Below, piece by piece: positions 6,208-34,703 of a stretch of 64,000 nucleotides of DNA. The notes below the pieces were generated by a model. The model saw nothing but the letters and a program-made list of their open reading frames with translations, ran no database searches and was not told the origin of the DNA. The stretch is from Anaerolineae bacterium (lineage in GTDB: Bacteria; Chloroflexota; Anaerolineae; Aggregatilineales; Aggregatilineaceae), in NCBI GenBank assembly GCA_018432315.1, contig JAHDLB010000003.1, forward strand, positions 62,001 through 126,000, in the 5' to 3' direction. How positions within the stretch are numbered: the stretch's first letter is position 1; the number at the start of each line of letters is the position of its first letter. The translations under genes were made by a program, and so were the position numbers.

Positions 6208-8031
6208 ATGGCACAGCTTGACAGCCTCGTGCGGGCGGTGTGCGCAGTCAAGACGCTGGACGACAGCGGGCGCGTGGGCGGGTACCTGGTCGTGTGGGGA
6301 CACCCGGCCCAGCGCGACCTGCACGGGGAATACTTCACGCCGGAGACGGACCTGGGCCTGGATTGGTACCCCCGCCGCCCGGTCCTCTACCATCACGGGC
6401 TGGACGGCGAGCTTGGCCCGGTGATGATCGGGCAGATCGAGCGGATGCAGCCGGATGGCGCCGGCGTGTGGGTGGAAGCCCAGCTCGACCTGCGGAACCG
6501 CTGGGCGCGGGCGGTGCTCGCCCTGGTGCAGCGCGACGCGCTCGGCTGGAGCAGCGGCAGCCTGCCGCACCTGGTGGACGTGGCCGCCGACGGGCACATC
6601 CGGCGCTGGCCTATCGTGGAGGGCAGCCTGACGCCATCGCCCGCCGAGCCGCGCCTGACCGACGCGGTGGCGGTGAAAGCGGCGTTCCGGGCGCTGGGGC
6701 TGCCGACGGATCGTATCGACAACAGCGAGGCAAGTGGAGGGATGATGAACACACAACGACCATCTGTGGGGCATGGTGACGGGCATCACGACGGGATCAA
6801 ACGGCTGCCGGCGACCCAGGTCGCGCCGCGCCCCGGCGCGCCGGCCATCGAGGTGAGCAGCAAATACGCGCACCTCGACGCCGTGGACATGGCGTTCATG
6901 CACACCTGGCTCAGCCGGACCGGCCAGTGGCAGCCCTCGAACGCGTTCATGCGCGAGCTGGCGCACAAGGCGTTCCGCGCCGTCGAGCAGGGCGACCTGG
7001 ACGCCGGGGCGCTGGCCGCGCTGCCGATCAAGGCCGACGAGCTGATGCACACCGACAACGTCGCGTACGGTGCGGAGTGGGTGCCCGATATCTGGTCCAG
7101 CGAGCTGTGGCGCAAAGTGCGCAGCGAGAACGTGATCCTGCCGCTGTTCCGGGCGGTCGAGATGCCGTCGAACCCGTTCGAGCTGCCGATCTCCGGGACC
7201 GACCCGACCGTGTATTACGTGCCCGAAACGCAGGACGAGGACGACCTGACGCTGGGCAGCACCAACCCGATCCCCGACAGCCAGATCGGCAGCGGCAAGG
7301 TCACGCTGACGGCGAAGAAGCTGGCGCTGCGGGTGGGCTTCTCGGCGGAGCTGGTCGAGGACGCGGCGATCCCGCTGATCGCGCTCTACCGCGAGCAGGC
7401 GCTGCGCGTGATGGCCGAGGCCATCGACCACGTGCTGCTCAACGGCGACACCGAGGACGGCGCGACCGGCAACATCAACAGCGACGACGCGCCCCCGGCC
7501 AGTACGGCCAAGTACATGGCCTTCGACGGGCTGCGCAAGCTGCCGTTGGTCACCAACACCGACAACGCCCACGACGCCAACGGCGTCCCGTCGGTGGCCC
7601 TGCTGCGCACGGCGCGTTTTCTGATGCCGCCGCGTTACGCGCTGCGCCCCAAAGACTGCGCCTGGATCGTGGATGGCAGCACCTATGCCAAGCTGCTCGG
7701 CCTGGACGAGGTGGCGACGGTGGACAAGTTCGGCCCGCATGCCACCGTGCTCACCGGCGAGATCGCGAAGGTGGACGGCGTGCCGGTGCTGGTCAGTTCG
7801 GAGATGCCGCTCACCCAGGCCGACGGCAAAGCGGATGCCGCCGCCAACACCAAAGGCCAGGCGCTGTGTGTCTACCGGCCCGGCTGGGTGATCGGCTACC
7901 GGCGGCGGATCGCCGCGACGATGGACTACCTGCCGTATTACGACGCGTACCAGATGGTGGCGACGGTGCGGCTGGCGTTCGGACGCTTCGACAACGACGT
8001 CGCCAGCGTGCTCTACAACATCACCGTCTAG
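6208..8031 (+). CDS. HK97-type prohead protease-major capsid fusion (607 aa)
   Basis: The N-terminal ~150 residues are an HK97-family prohead protease: 'GYLVVWG', 'LYHHG' with the catalytic His (about 62-63) and 'LGWSSGS' with the catalytic Ser (about 115-116). A linker of about 100 residues follows, then the HK97-fold major capsid protein from about residue 180 onward, with 'LGSTNPIPDSQ', 'VGFSAELVED' and a C-terminal 'GWVIGYRRRI' region. In many HK97-like phages these are separate genes or a natural fusion; here it is one frame. The start at 6208 has AAGGAGG four bases upstream, while the longer start at 6181 has none. It is the first gene of virion locus A. GC content and codon use match the host genes around it. 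Confidence 0.92.
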   Translation: MAQLDSLVRAVCAVKTLDDSGRVGGYLVVWGHPAQRDLHGEYFTPETDLGLDWYPRRPVLYHHGLDGELGPVMIGQIERMQPDGAGVWVEAQLDLRNRWARAVLALVQRDALGWSSGSLPHLVDVAADGHIRRWPIVEGSLTPSPAEPRLTDAVAVKAAFRALGLPTDRIDNSEASGGMMNTQRPSVGHGDGHHDGIKRLPATQVAPRPGAPAIEVSSKYAHLDAVDMAFMHTWLSRTGQWQPSNAFMRELAHKAFRAVEQGDLDAGALAALPIKADELMHTDNVAYGAEWVPDIWSSELWRKVRSENVILPLFRAVEMPSNPFELPISGTDPTVYYVPETQDEDDLTLGSTNPIPDSQIGSGKVTLTAKKLALRVGFSAELVEDAAIPLIALYREQALRVMAEAIDHVLLNGDTEDGATGNINSDDAPPASTAKYMAFDGLRKLPLVTNTDNAHDANGVPSVALLRTARFLMPPRYALRPKDCAWIVDGSTYAKLLGLDEVATVDKFGPHATVLTGEIAKVDGVPVLVSSEMPLTQADGKADAAANTKGQALCVYRPGWVIGYRRRIAATMDYLPYYDAYQMVATVRLAFGRFDNDVASVLYNITV

Positions 8032-8041
8032 CGGGCGCAAA

Positions 8042-8071
8042 AAGCCGGTAGGGGCGCGCCTCTACCGGCTT
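8042..8071. terminator. Hairpin terminator between capsid and FHA gene 1
   Basis: A perfect 10-bp stem, AAGCCGGTAG (8042-8051) with CTACCGGCTT (8062-8071), sits between convergent genes 10 bp after the capsid stop. It has A residues on the left and no long T-run on the right, so it may serve both directions. It makes the capsid gene a monocistronic unit. Confidence 0.7.
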
Positions 8072-8094
8072 CGGATGTCTCTGGCGGGCGGGGA

Positions 8095-8643
8095 TTACCC
8101 CTCTTTTGGAGGCGCCGTGTGAAACCGCACCGTGCAGCGAAGCTGGCCCAGCATCAGCGTGTCGCCGTGGGCGACGTGGCAGCCCTGGCCCGGCGCGACC
8201 ATCGAGCCGTTGAGGTACGTGCCGTTGGCGCTGCCCAGGTCGATCAGGACCAGGCGGCTGTTGCGCCGTTCGAGCGAACAGTGTTGGCGTGAAACGCCCA
8301 TCCGGTACGCGTCGAACGGCGTCAGGTCGAGCATGTCGCTCTCCGGCGACGACGAGCGCCCCAATACGACGCGGTGATGAAACGGCAGCGACAGGCACAC
8401 GCCGGACGGCTCGAACTGGAGGATGACGTTGGCTTTGAGCGGCAGGACGCTGTTGCCGGTGGTGGACGCTGCCGGGAGAACCGGCGGGTTGGTCAGCATG
8501 ACGGTTCCCGGTGTGGCCGCGGGTTGGAGCGGCGCGCCGCACTTGGGGCAGCGGGTTTCGTCGGTCGTCCAGCCAAAATGCCCGCAGCGCCGGCAAAACA
8601 TGGAATGCTGTGTCCGCACGAGCACGGTTGATTCGTCGGTCAT
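8095..8643 (-). CDS. Zinc-ribbon FHA-domain protein 1 (182 aa)
   Basis: An N-terminal zinc ribbon (CRRCG ... CPKCG, about residues 18-38) is joined by a linker to a C-terminal FHA domain (about 80-180), which binds phosphothreonine peptides. FHA hallmarks are present: 'VVLGRSSS', 'GVSRQHCSLER' and 'DLGSANGTYLNG'. It is the first of three paralogues of nearly equal size on the minus strand, placed between the capsid gene and the connector gene of virion locus A. The ATG at 8643 is chosen because the preceding 14 in-frame residues are poor. Function is unknown; FHA proteins usually act with Ser/Thr kinases, none of which is in this window. Confidence 0.88.
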   Translation of the reverse strand: MTDESTVLVRTQHSMFCRRCGHFGWTTDETRCPKCGAPLQPAATPGTVMLTNPPVLPAASTTGNSVLPLKANVILQFEPSGVCLSLPFHHRVVLGRSSSPESDMLDLTPFDAYRMGVSRQHCSLERRNSRLVLIDLGSANGTYLNGSMVAPGQGCHVAHGDTLMLGQLRCTVRFHTAPPKEG

Positions 8644-13794: not shown

Positions 13795-14115
13795 ATGGAC
13801 GTGATGCTTTCGGAGCCTACGCTGACGGTATGGAGCCTGCTGGGGGCTGCCCTGGGGACGCTGCTGCTGGCGGCGGCGACGCTGTGGGCCGGGGCGCAGC
13901 TCACCCGGCAGGCGCGCCACGTGTGGCAGGCGGTGCGCGGCCAGACGCCGCGCGTGCTCGCCGCCGTGGACGAGCCGACCGATCCCCTGATCGCGGGGTT
14001 GGCCCACCATTCGCGCGTGCCGGCGGCGGTGTGGGCGGCGTTTCTGCCGGCCTTTCTGGGCGCACTGGCGGCGGGGCTGGACCAGGTGCTGGCCGAGCCG
14101 GACGCGTCCGAGTAG
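13795..14115 (+). CDS. Small membrane protein at the end of virion locus A (106 aa)
   Basis: A strong hydrophobic segment at about residues 12-35 ('LLGAALGTLLLAAATLWAG') is followed by a basic amphipathic stretch and a second weaker hydrophobic segment near 80-98. Size, one or two membrane spans and a place at the end of a virion gene cluster resemble holin-like proteins, but no endolysin is adjacent and holins cannot be recognised by sequence alone. It starts 4 bp after the preceding stop. GC-rich alternative hairpins without a T-run follow at 14118-14142. Confidence 0.6.
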   Translation: MDVMLSEPTLTVWSLLGAALGTLLLAAATLWAGAQLTRQARHVWQAVRGQTPRVLAAVDEPTDPLIAGLAHHSRVPAAVWAAFLPAFLGALAAGLDQVLAEPDASE

Positions 14116-14218
14116 CGGCCCGTGTCCGGGCGGCGGCCCGGCGTGGATGCCCAAGCTTTGGGGGTTCGTGCCGGGCCGGGTCGTGCTATGCTGGATGTGT
14201 AGTAAGGAGCGATGCCAC

Positions 14219-29501: not shown

Positions 29502-32500
29502 TCAGCCAATCTGGGCCTGGCGCTGGTAGGTGATGAACCGCGCGATTTCGCGGTCGGTCAGGTCGCGCGGGGGCATCACCAGGTAATACCCGTCGGCCCA
29601 CAGCGGCTGATAGCCGTCCAGCCATTCGGGGTGGAGCGCGCTGACGCGGTGGGTGGTTTCGTCCATCAGGTGCGCGATCACGTCGTCGGGCTCCGCTTTT
29701 TGCGGCACGCACAGCGACACCGCGATGAAATCGGCGTTGACCTCCACCGACTCGATGCGCCAGCCGTGCTCCGCGCCGATTTCGAAGACCCACTTGCGCA
29801 GGTCGTCGGCGAACGTGCCCGCCAGTTCCTGGCCGGGATCGCGCGGCAGCCACAGGCAGGTGAAGCCCATGTCGGCCTCTTCCTGGCCGCCGGGACGCGG
29901 CAGCACGCCCGCCTCGTCCGCGATGCGCCTCTCTTCGTCGATGCGCCAGTCCGCCGGGCGCTGCATGTCGGTGGGGCGGCTGGGCTCGGTCCGGGCGGCG
30001 GGGGGCTCGTCACCGGCGAGCGACTCCTCGGCCTCGGGCACGAGGTCCAGCGACTGGCCGAGGCGCTGCGCCTGGCGGCGGATCACGCTCACAGTCGTGT
30101 CGAGGTGGAACACCATGCTCAGGATCAGGTCGCCGGCGACCAGCTTGCTGTACAGCAGGAAGTCGCCCGCCTCCGGCAGGGTGATGTAGCGCATCAGCGA
30201 GTCGGTATCGTCGCTGCTGCGGGTCTGCCACGCGCCGTCGACGAGGTCGAACAGGCGATCCATCGCCACATCGGGCAGATCGCCCGCCCCGGCCAGCATC
30301 TCGCCCGGGCGGCTGAGCATGGTCGCCTGGGCCGAGCTTTCCAGCGAATACTGGGTGAGCTGGATGGCGATTTGCGTCAGGGTGACCTCGTCGTCTTCGT
30401 CGCCGGGCGCAGGGCCGGCATCCTCGCCGCTCAGCAGGCGGGCCGCGGCCTCGACCGGCACCGGGATCAGGTGGTCGTCGTCGATGGGGATGATCTCCTC
30501 AACCTCGTCCCACATGGGGACCGCTTCGTGTGCTTCGTCATAGGCGGCGGGCGGCGCGTCCGGTTCGGGCGCGAATTCCCCGGCTTCGTCCGGCGGCGCT
30601 TCGAAGGGCGCGTCGCCGGCCTGCGCGTCCTCGTCGTAGGCGGGGAACACCAGCTCGGCCTCTTCCTGAACCCCGGCGTAAAATGCCTCGGCGATGGCGT
30701 CGTCCAGGTCGTCCACTTCCCAATCGGCCTCCGGCTGGGCGAACGGCTCCTCGCTCGCGGACGCCTCCACCAGGTTCAACAACTGCTCCAGCGCCTCGGA
30801 GTCGTCCATCGCGGACGGCTCCTCCTCACCGGGCGGTTCGGCGCCGGTGCCTTCCATGCGGTCGAACAGCGATTCGAGCGACTGCGCGCCCTCCAGCGAG
30901 GACGCGTCGCCCCAGGACGGCAGCGGCTTGAGGCGCGGGCGCCCGCTGCGCGGCGGCGGCAACTGCTGCTCGATCTGGCTCAGCAACCGGTTGAGCGAAA
31001 AATCTTCGCTGGCCTCGTCCCGCGAGACGGCGCTGAGCGCCGCCGTGGCGGGGTAGTGCGACGAGTCCTCGGCGTCGACCGGCGGCTCCTCGACCGGCTC
31101 CGCCTCCGCGCCGATGCCCATTTCGACCGGGTCCAGCCCTTCGGCCTCGTATTCCTTCAGCCATTCGGGCGCGTCGCGTTCTTCGGACAACTCGCCGGGC
31201 AAGATGCGATCGCGCGGCTGGGAACCGGGACCGGCCTGGGGCGCGCCGCCGTAGGTCGGCTCTGGGAAGTCCTCGTCGTCGATCTCGCGGCCCGCCAGCG
31301 CTTCGAGCACGCCCTCGAACGAGGGATCGAACAGGTCGTGCATCACGTCGCCAATGGTGGGATCCTCCAGGTCCGCGATCGCGCCGTCGGGCACGTCCGG
31401 GCCGAGCGACTGCCCGCGCCGGATGGCGTCCAGCACGTAATCGAGTTCCGTCTCGCCTTCGTCCGAGACGTCGTTGGGTTCTTCGCGGGCCGTATCGGCG
31501 GCGATCGAGGCGAGCAGGTCTTCCAGCCAGCGGCGGCGGGTGCGCCTTTCTCCCGGCCCGCGCATGGAGTCGACGAGCTGGTGAAAGGCTTCGTCATCCG
31601 GCGACAGGGGGCGCGCGTTGGGCGGCGACTGGGCCACCGCGTCGAGCACCTCGCCGAAGGTGGACGGGTCGTGCTCCTGCACGTCGGTCGCCAGGAACTG
31701 CCGCACGCCCGGCAGGTCTTGCTGCGGGACGGTGGGCGTGTCCTCTTCCTGGGTGGGCGGCTCGCCCAAAAACGGCTCGAACAGGCGCGTCCCGGCGCCC
31801 TCCATCACCCAGCCGTGCGCTTCGAGCACGTCTTCGTCACCGGCTTCCGCGCCGGGGTCGTCGCTGAAACGCACCGTCCCGGCGGGCTGGGACTGGTCGT
31901 CCAGCTCGTGCGTGTCGGAGAGCTGTGACGTGGGCGGTGCAGCGTCCCATTGCAGCAGCGCCGTCGTTTTAGCTGGCGTAGCGGGCGCGTCGTCGAGCTG
32001 TTTGGTGCCGTAATCGGCTTCCGGCTCGTCGAGGTCCCGGGGCCCGCCCTCCTCGAACGCTTCCAGCTCGCGGAGAATGGCGTCCGGATCGCTGGCGAGG
32101 CTGTCGGCGCCGCTGTCGCCCAGTTTGTCGCGCTCGACGCCGTCCAGCAGCTCGGTCGGCGACGGGGTCGGGCGCGCGGCGTCCTCCTCTTCGGGCACCA
32201 GGTGGCGCAGCGTGGCCGGCATGGCGGGCGGGACGAAGGCATCTTCCGGCGCGGGCGAAGCGCTCGCGCGGCTCGCCAGGCTCCGCAGGTGGGGGATCAG
32301 GTCGCGGGCCATGTACGGCTTGGACAGCACGCCCTGAATGTCCAGAAACCGCGCGCGCTCGCGGTGCAGGTCGGTGTGCGGCGTCATGACGATCGGCAGG
32401 TCCGGCTGGATGTGGCGCAGATCCGCGATCAGTTCCATCACGTCCTGCTCGGGGATCTCGAAGTCGAGCACGGCGACGTCGTGCCGCCCGCGTTCGAGCG

Positions 32501-32624
32501 AGTCCTGGGCGGCGGGCCCGGTGGCCGACACGCTGACGTGAAACTCGCCGGTATCTTCGAGCGCCTGTTTGAGGCTCACCACGAACGTGATATCGGGGTC
32601 GATGATTAAAATGCGTGTGGTCAT
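29502..32624 (-). CDS. Response regulator with long acidic linker and inactive IS200-type transposase domain (1040 aa)
   Basis: Residues 1-~120 are a receiver domain with the acidic pair near D9/D11, phospho-acceptor D54 in 'AVLDFEIP', Thr/Ser in 'IVMTPHT' and the conserved Lys in 'VLSKPY', so it is probably phosphorylatable. About 750 residues of acidic, low-complexity sequence follow. The last ~120 residues align with the Y1 (IS200/IS605 TnpA) fold: 'FTCLWLPRDPG' with the YHIVW strand, 'VNADFIAVSLCVP' with the D-H-I-H-I (HUH) strand, 'LWADGYYLV' with LWxxxxF, and 'IARFITYQ' with the QYIENQ helix. Both HUH His residues and the nucleophilic Tyr are replaced (Phe, Ala, Phe), so it cannot cut DNA. 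DNA or RNA hairpin binding is possible. No histidine kinase is adjacent. Confidence 0.8.
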   Translation of the reverse strand: MTTRILIIDPDITFVVSLKQALEDTGEFHVSVSATGPAAQDSLERGRHDVAVLDFEIPEQDVMELIADLRHIQPDLPIVMTPHTDLHRERARFLDIQGVLSKPYMARDLIPHLRSLASRASASPAPEDAFVPPAMPATLRHLVPEEEDAARPTPSPTELLDGVERDKLGDSGADSLASDPDAILRELEAFEEGGPRDLDEPEADYGTKQLDDAPATPAKTTALLQWDAAPPTSQLSDTHELDDQSQPAGTVRFSDDPGAEAGDEDVLEAHGWVMEGAGTRLFEPFLGEPPTQEEDTPTVPQQDLPGVRQFLATDVQEHDPSTFGEVLDAVAQSPPNARPLSPDDEAFHQLVDSMRGPGERRTRRRWLEDLLASIAADTAREEPNDVSDEGETELDYVLDAIRRGQSLGPDVPDGAIADLEDPTIGDVMHDLFDPSFEGVLEALAGREIDDEDFPEPTYGGAPQAGPGSQPRDRILPGELSEERDAPEWLKEYEAEGLDPVEMGIGAEAEPVEEPPVDAEDSSHYPATAALSAVSRDEASEDFSLNRLLSQIEQQLPPPRSGRPRLKPLPSWGDASSLEGAQSLESLFDRMEGTGAEPPGEEEPSAMDDSEALEQLLNLVEASASEEPFAQPEADWEVDDLDDAIAEAFYAGVQEEAELVFPAYDEDAQAGDAPFEAPPDEAGEFAPEPDAPPAAYDEAHEAVPMWDEVEEIIPIDDDHLIPVPVEAAARLLSGEDAGPAPGDEDDEVTLTQIAIQLTQYSLESSAQATMLSRPGEMLAGAGDLPDVAMDRLFDLVDGAWQTRSSDDTDSLMRYITLPEAGDFLLYSKLVAGDLILSMVFHLDTTVSVIRRQAQRLGQSLDLVPEAEESLAGDEPPAARTEPSRPTDMQRPADWRIDEERRIADEAGVLPRPGGQEEADMGFTCLWLPRDPGQELAGTFADDLRKWVFEIGAEHGWRIESVEVNADFIAVSLCVPQKAEPDDVIAHLMDETTHRVSALHPEWLDGYQPLWADGYYLVMPPRDLTDREIARFITYQRQAQIG

Positions 32625-32695
32625 GACGCGGCCCACCCGGATTGACTGATCAGCTTATGACCATTGTACTGTGAGCGCGTCACCAGGGCAACGGC

Positions 32696-32724
32696 TGGAC
32701 ACCGCCCCTGTTTCGTCGTAGAAT
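32696..32724 (+). promoter_or_regulatory. Promoter of the structured RNA
   Basis: TGGACA (32696-32701) and TAGAAT (32719-32724) are spaced exactly 17 bp. Each is one base from consensus. The expected start (near 32731) falls just before the 5' strand of the long closing stem at 32736. Confidence 0.7.
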
Positions 32725-32730
32725 GAGAAA

Positions 32731-32846
32731 TAACACATGAGTGACCTGCTGCCTCTGGCGCTGTGACGCCGCTTGATACACCTGACGTTTGATGCGTCAT
32801 TTGGAAGTATCCTCAATTTGTAGCAGAAGCGTCACTCATGTTTTTT
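32731..32846 (+). ncRNA. Candidate structured non-coding RNA, about 110-115 nt
   Basis: The region has no reading frame but folds compactly. CATGAGTGAC (32736-32745) pairs perfectly with GTCACTCATG (32831-32840). CTGCTGC (32746-32752) pairs with GTAGCAG (32820-32826). Inside are two hairpins: GGCG/CGCC (32757-32760, 32767-32770) and a longer one with GATAC/GTATC (32775-32779, 32807-32811), CC/GG and TGACG/CGTCA (32783-32787, 32795-32799). Six T residues follow the closing stem. A 17-bp-spaced promoter precedes it. I could not match it to SRP RNA, 6S RNA or a known riboswitch. The reverse strand has a weaker T-run and no comparable promoter. Confidence 0.65.
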
Positions 32847-32860
32847 GTGCGCGGCCCGGT

Positions 32861-33400
32861 TCAGTCCTCCCGCACGGTGCCCCGGTAGTCCTCGATGAAG
32901 TCCACGATCAGCTCGCGGTCGATTGCGTCCAACGCCAGCAGGCGCGTCCAGGCGGTGACGGCGAAGCGATCGTCCATGTTGGTGTACGGGTGCAGAATGA
33001 GCTGCTCGGTCCCGGCGTCGTTCAGGATGCCGCGCAGCGTCTCGACGTCTGCCGCGCAGCCGTCGGGGCAGTTGTAGTGCAGGATCACCGCGCCCCGTTC
33101 GAGCGCGTGAAGCTGCGCCGCGTCCGACAGAGTCGTCGCGTGCTCGCCCCAGCTCACCTCTTCCGGCATGTGCGGGCCGGAGGTGGGCGGGTGGCTGATG
33201 TACACGTCGCTCGCCACCTGGACCTGCACGTGCCGGCGGCCCATGTCGGGCAGGATGCGCACGTCGTTTTTCTCCGGCGTGAGCAGGGCGGCCACCGCCA
33301 GCGCCGTCGAGCTGACGACGATGACCAGGATGACGAACGCGAGCAGCAGCAGCTTGTTGCGGCGCGCCGGGTGCGCCGTCTGGTACGGAACGATGCTCAT
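32861..33400 (-). CDS. DUF3105 family membrane protein (179 aa)
   Basis: An N-terminal membrane segment (about 15-42) precedes an extracytoplasmic domain matching DUF3105: 'HPPTSGPHMPE' (Pro-Pro-x-Ser-Gly-x-His), 'LHALERGAVILHYNC' (His-Ala-Leu-Glu-Arg-Gly) and the C-terminal 'FAVTAWTRLLALD'. The conserved His residues suggest metal binding; function is unknown in the family. GGAGGACTC precedes the ATG. The 5' end is divergent from the aminopeptidase gene and the 3' end abuts the structured RNA. Confidence 0.85.
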   Translation of the reverse strand: MSIVPYQTAHPARRNKLLLLAFVILVIVVSSTALAVAALLTPEKNDVRILPDMGRRHVQVQVASDVYISHPPTSGPHMPEEVSWGEHATTLSDAAQLHALERGAVILHYNCPDGCAADVETLRGILNDAGTEQLILHPYTNMDDRFAVTAWTRLLALDAIDRELIVDFIEDYRGTVRED

Positions 33401-33578: not shown

Positions 33579-34703
33579 ATGACAAAAAACCTGGCGACCG
33601 ATCTCGCCAAAATCCTTACCGAGTATTCATCCCCCGTCCAGCCGGGCGACTACGTGACCATCGCCGCCCAGCACGACACCGCCGCGCCGCTGGTCGAGGC
33701 GCTGGTCGAGGCTGTGCTGAAGCGGGGCGGGTACCCCAACGTGCAGTCGGCGGCGCTCATCTCCGCCGATTACTCGCCCTATTTCGAGCTGTTCATGCGC
33801 GAGGCGAACGACGCCCAACTCGACCACCTGGACTCGACGATCATGCACTGGGTCAACCATTCCGACGCGCTGTTCTTCATCAAGGCGCCGACCAACACCA
33901 AAGCCGTCTCTACCATCGACCCGGCGCGCATCAGCCGCTTTCGCCGGGCGATCCAGCCGTTCGGCGAGGCGTATCTCGACCGGTACGATCAGGGCGAGCT
34001 GCGCTGGACCGTCGTCGGCTGGCCGACCCAGGCCCTGGCGCAGTCCGCCGAGATGGGCCTCCGCGCCTACGAGGCGTTCGTGTACCGCGCCTGCGGGCTG
34101 GACCAGCCGGACCCGGTCGCCTACTGGACCGCGTTCCGCGAGCAGCAGGAGCGGCTGGTGGCGTGGCTGGCCGATAAGAAGCACGCCGAAGTGCGCGGCC
34201 CCGGCATCGACCTGTCATTCGACTTCGACGGGCGGCTGTGGGTGAGCTGTCACGGCGAGCTGAACTTCCCCGACGGCGAGATTTTCACCAGCCCGGTCGA
34301 GGACTCGGTCAGCGGCACGGTCGCGTTCAACTTCCCCTCGGTCTACCAGGGCTTCGAGGTGGACGGCGTGAAGCTGCGCTTCGAGGATGGCGTGGCGGTC
34401 GAAGCGTCGGCCAGCAAGGGCGAGGCGTTCCTGCTCAGCCAGCTCGACACCGACGCGGGCGGGCGCCGCCTGGGTGAGTTCGCCATCGGGACGAACATGG
34501 GCGTCCAGCAGTTGACGCGCAGCATCCTGTTCGACGAGAAGATCGGCGGCAGCATCCACATGGCGCTGGGCCGCAGCTATGCCGAGGCGAAGGGGCTCAA
34601 CCAGAGCGCCATTCACTGGGACATGGTCCACAACATGAAAGACGGCGGCGAGATCGTGATCGATGGCGAGCTGTTCTACCGGGGCGGCGAGTTCATGGTC
34701 TGA
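33579..34703 (+). CDS. M29 family aminopeptidase (374 aa)
   Basis: Thermophilic metalloprotease family (AmpS/PepS/aminopeptidase T), cytoplasmic dimers with two metal ions that release N-terminal residues. Ligand segments are visible: 'TSPVEDSVSG' (Glu), 'RLGEFAIGTN' (Glu), 'IGGSIHMALGRSY' (His), 'SAIHWDMVHNM' (His, Asp). Length is slightly shorter than typical (about 400). An extended -10 (TGC-TATAGT, 33502-33507) precedes it and the ribosome site GGCGAAGAA is modest. It stands alone, convergent with the AlbA_2 gene downstream. Confidence 0.93.
   Translation: MTKNLATDLAKILTEYSSPVQPGDYVTIAAQHDTAAPLVEALVEAVLKRGGYPNVQSAALISADYSPYFELFMREANDAQLDHLDSTIMHWVNHSDALFFIKAPTNTKAVSTIDPARISRFRRAIQPFGEAYLDRYDQGELRWTVVGWPTQALAQSAEMGLRAYEAFVYRACGLDQPDPVAYWTAFREQQERLVAWLADKKHAEVRGPGIDLSFDFDGRLWVSCHGELNFPDGEIFTSPVEDSVSGTVAFNFPSVYQGFEVDGVKLRFEDGVAVEASASKGEAFLLSQLDTDAGGRRLGEFAIGTNMGVQQLTRSILFDEKIGGSIHMALGRSYAEAKGLNQSAIHWDMVHNMKDGGEIVIDGELFYRGGEFMV

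Follow-up and report, generated by a model that had tools for sequence, protein, structure and literature searches.

The sequence of an intergenic element of about 110 bases, located on the + strand (32735-32846) in a Chloroflexota (Anaerolineae) bacterium, makes it, on balance, a probable small RNA gene restricted to its species or genus. Within the 64-kb window, the term used here for the whole stretch of DNA that was analysed, a + strand small RNA gene is favoured because a promoter, a long stem and a T run occur there in register (Table 1). The predicted fold of 32732-32846 (-42.9 kcal/mol), in which the minimum free energy structure and the centroid coincide, opens with the 11-bp closing stem; a bulge of 4 nt in the 3' strand separates it from the 7-bp stem, which leads into a three-way junction carrying two hairpins. 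Base pairs of the closing stem have probabilities of 0.88-1.0, those of the inner hairpins mostly exceed 0.9, and those of the 7-bp stem, which includes one G-U pair, reach ca. 0.7. The first T of the T6 run belongs to the closing stem and five more follow it. The 11-bp stem and T6 together form a predicted intrinsic terminator, one that the standard short-loop scan omits. The original prediction of an orphan structured RNA had described the promoter with its 17-nt spacing, the 7-bp stem adjoining the closing stem, the two internal hairpins and the terminator-like T6 run, and all of these are present; the closing stem is perfect, as it had stated, but measures 11 bp and not 10 bp.

Table 1. 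Coordinates of the features of the element and of the neighbouring promoter (positions in the window).
Feature	Sequence	Position	Strand	Basis
Divergent response-regulator promoter	TTGCCC-17-TACAAT	32663-32691	-	conserved in family
Predicted sigma-70-type promoter, 10/12	TGGACA-17-TAGAAT	32696-32724	+	consensus match, prediction only
Closing stem, 5' strand (11 bp, perfect)	ACATGAGTGAC	32735-32745	+	predicted fold
Adjoining 7-bp stem, 5' strand	CTGCTGC	32746-32752 (partner 32820-32826)	+	predicted fold
Internal hairpin 1 (5 bp)	TGGCG-CTGTGA-CGCCG	32756-32771	+	predicted fold
Internal hairpin 2, interrupted	GATAC/GTATC, CC/GG and TGACGT/GCGTCA helices	32775-32811	+	predicted fold
Longest unpaired junction stretch	CTCAATTT	32812-32819	+	predicted fold
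Closing stem, 3' strand	GTCACTCATGT	32831-32841	+	predicted fold
T6 run, terminator tail		32841-32846	+	sequence

The predicted promoter, with its -35 box at 32696-32701 and its -10 box at 32719-32724, stands in exact register with the start of the stem and with the T run. In 1.5 kb, two promoter-like sites scored 9/12 or better vs 0.1 expected, and the + strand of the window has only four that reach 10/12 or more, about one per 16 kb; given this rarity, a promoter ending 10 nt 5' of the stem is unlikely to be a coincidence. A similar promoter, TTTACA-17-TATAAC, lies just upstream of the 6S gene in the same genome. From these sequence elements we infer that the element is transcribed. RNA polymerase would likely start at about 32731, 7 nt past the -10 box and some 4 nt 5' of the closing stem, and would terminate at about 32846, within the T run, yielding an RNA of ca. 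110-116 nt. Its 5' end would then pair with its 3' end, the resulting 11-bp helix both ending transcription and closing the RNA into a three-way junction. Such a molecule would most likely be a regulatory RNA acting in trans by way of junction segments left unpaired, for instance CUCAAUUU, a mode of action that we put forward as a guess, with CTCAATTT as a possible pairing site.

Of the perfect stems that measure 10 bp or more and span 50-160 nt, only that of the element is followed by T5 on either strand of the whole window, and 20 shuffles of the window produced no such stem. The fold z-scores, which depend on the boundaries and the shuffling method, were -3.9 (131 nt) and -5.2 (115 nt), and a separate dinucleotide shuffle put these 115 nt at -4.35. 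When 401 sampled 115-nt stretches of the + strand were ranked by fold against shuffles, the element came third. The two better stretches were 14096-14210 and 8016-8130 (z -5.3 and -4.4), the former running across the end of one reading frame and an inverted repeat of high GC content just ahead of the next gene. Two properties of the fold count against a small RNA: the inner junction without the closing stem is only marginally beyond chance (z only -1.9, 9/300 shuffles being as good), and the fold of the opposite strand is just as good (-43.9 vs -42.9 kcal/mol on the + strand). Together, they indicate that the outer palindrome accounts for most of the fold excess. A palindrome due to chance, or a relic such as the remnant of a miniature inverted repeat or a duplicated segment, functionless today, would fit the perfect 11-bp terminal inverted repeats with their longer imperfect extension and an element known from one genome only; in the gap that precedes the response-regulator orthologs, several relatives also have other, unrelated palindromes. 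This origin is less likely, and on the whole improbable, as the element is single-copy, shows no obvious target-site duplication, and lines up with a promoter and a T run.

Since the opposite strand folds as well, the palindrome may also act at the DNA level or as a minus-strand terminator. The gene to its right, a DUF3105 gene (32861-33400, -), converges on the element, and the main rival to a small RNA gene is a large, perhaps bidirectional, intrinsic terminator of this gene, which would stop the - strand transcript before the response-regulator promoter and would make the + strand promoter match incidental. Such a terminator is conceivable, if doubtful. On the - strand the stem starts 20 nt past the DUF3105 stop, a typical position, has an equally good fold, and is followed by the moderately T-rich GTTATTTCTCATTCT; moreover, a compact palindromic hairpin sits directly past the DUF3105 stop in two relatives (L039 and L040). 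However, the unbroken T6 lies on the + strand, whereas the - strand tail is interrupted, and a loop of ca. 85 nt with branches of its own is unusual in a plain terminator. The fold also contains three G-U pairs (32751/32821, 32756/32771 and 32788/32794), which are standard on the + strand only and become A-C mismatches on the - strand, lending weak further support to a + strand RNA. A paralog of the DUF3105 gene occurs elsewhere in the genome (G000:C61:79015-79503), the two being 52% identical over most of their length.

The next + strand gene downstream of the element is an M29 aminopeptidase at 33579, whose best named matches are in Anaerolineae/Chloroflexi genomes. The original view that the element is not the leader of a visible gene was borne out, no same-strand gene occurring downstream before this one. 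Its statement that no reading frame exists was essentially right: the only frame inside the element is a 9-codon ATG frame, MSDLLPLAL (32738-32767), starting within the closing stem. Leucine accounts for 4/9 codons, and the element could be imagined as an attenuator in which this leucine-rich leader, overlapping the 5' strand of the terminator stem, controls readthrough. Such control is very unlikely, to the point of being nearly negligible, as the antisense DUF3105 gene intervenes before the gene at 33579, the sequence 5' of the frame would comprise ca. 6 nt and lack a ribosome-binding site, and a 9-codon frame is well within chance.

To the left of the element, and transcribed away from it, lies the response-regulator gene (29502-32636, -; ATG at ca. 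32624), whose 1044-aa product has a receiver domain at its N-terminus. Almost all genomes of the family contain orthologs (ca. 40-55% identity), G003 giving only a generic receiver-domain match. The C-terminus of the protein (aa 929-1021) has a weak match to IS200-type Y1 transposases (PF01797, E 2.3e-4, just under the cutoff), in which the HUH motif and catalytic tyrosine, as judged by eye, are missing, which suggests that a transposase domain has been exapted and is catalytically dead. The promoter of this gene follows a pattern, TTGCC-N17/18-GTACAAT, that 15/16 upstream regions share, that of the window being one of them and the odd one out being a short contig end. This conservation identifies the promoter as real; it is also a useful promoter reference for the lineage. 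Several relatives have a different gene upstream of the response regulator, on the same strand as the regulator, and REP-like palindromes (CAGACTTCGGAAGTCT and variants) occur upstream of its orthologs in the sister genomes L117 (genus g5) and L130. The -35 boxes of the element and response-regulator promoters stand back to back, 4 bp apart, so RNA polymerase could probably not occupy both promoters at once. The element's own promoter was absent upstream of the response-regulator orthologs; that it abuts a family-conserved promoter, in sequence that relatives do not keep, was counted against a small RNA.

With the element as query, BLAST returned only short chance matches from 100 relatives and from its own genome, where it is single-copy. 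A covariance model built from its single sequence, which scores itself at 148.1 bits, recovered only itself in 18 family genomes (best other E 1.35) and, at E <= 0.05, in 396 genomes of the class. Across 101 genomes, its best foreign match (E 0.03 per genome, 23.6 bits) was GC-rich and did not share the fold, and the foreign matches inspected were mostly GC-rich stretches without it. No relative was found in DUF3105 neighbourhoods (unfiltered search) or in 17 aminopeptidase neighbourhoods (filtered), nor was a similar stem present in the intergenic regions upstream of the response regulator in 15 orthologs; by BLAST, covariance model or synteny, no relative of the element was found in the 17 other family members. 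Phage and plasmid records gave chance matches only, and in viral contigs a 16-mer of the element had 17 matches, roughly the chance level estimated for the collection size, and a 21-mer had none. The orphan status claimed originally is thus upheld by the BLAST and covariance-model searches, but as strict filters applied in searches over 40 genomes, and a model built from one sequence is blind to strongly diverged relatives, the element is to be described as having no close homolog in the genomes searched rather than as unique in nature. Counted against a small RNA is that these genomes yielded no homologs and hence no covariation. Taken as a whole, the original reading is partly supported: it stands for the element's own promoter, terminator-like end, lack of a known class, lack of a downstream same-strand gene and orphan status, while transcription, and selection on the fold as RNA, stay at the level of prediction.

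Small RNAs of the Anaerolineae seem to be little described; in the literature searched, PMC2864571 was the only match for structured noncoding RNA in Chloroflexi. If true, a young small RNA beside a conserved regulator promoter would offer a small test case for the origin of small RNA genes. A bolder and quite improbable version would have the element found a new, young small-RNA class of one Anaerolineae genus, its closing helix serving as terminator and its promoter competing with that of the regulator to give alternating expression; the regulator concerned would be a conserved one that carries a degenerate IS200-transposase-like domain.

As originally stated, the element could be assigned to no known class. 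The window had no Rfam matches at gathering thresholds, and the element had none even at E <= 5. Riboswitches or leaders were dismissed, as no same-strand gene is directly downstream and DUF3105 is convergent, and so were MITE or REP-type repeats, the element having one copy in the genome. SRP RNA was rejected in the absence of an RF00169 match, the genome's SRP RNA being on another contig. For 6S RNA there was no RF00013 match, and the true 6S of the genome is on another contig, at G000:C2:150868-151041. The element resembles 6S RNA in having ends paired to close the RNA and a sigma-70-type promoter, but differs in lacking the central bubble and a match to the model. Bacterial Y RNAs have paired 5' and 3' ends and a branched top, as does the predicted fold; this assignment was discarded, as a TROVE/Ro60 gene was not found in the genome (a control genome was positive) and Rfam gave no match. 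The candidate small RNA gene comes closest to independently transcribed intergenic bacterial sRNAs, sharing with them its own predicted promoter, a length of ca. 110 nt, no reading frame, and a T run after a stem. Their terminator is a compact 3' hairpin, whereas in the element the helix that closes the entire RNA would serve as terminator stem.
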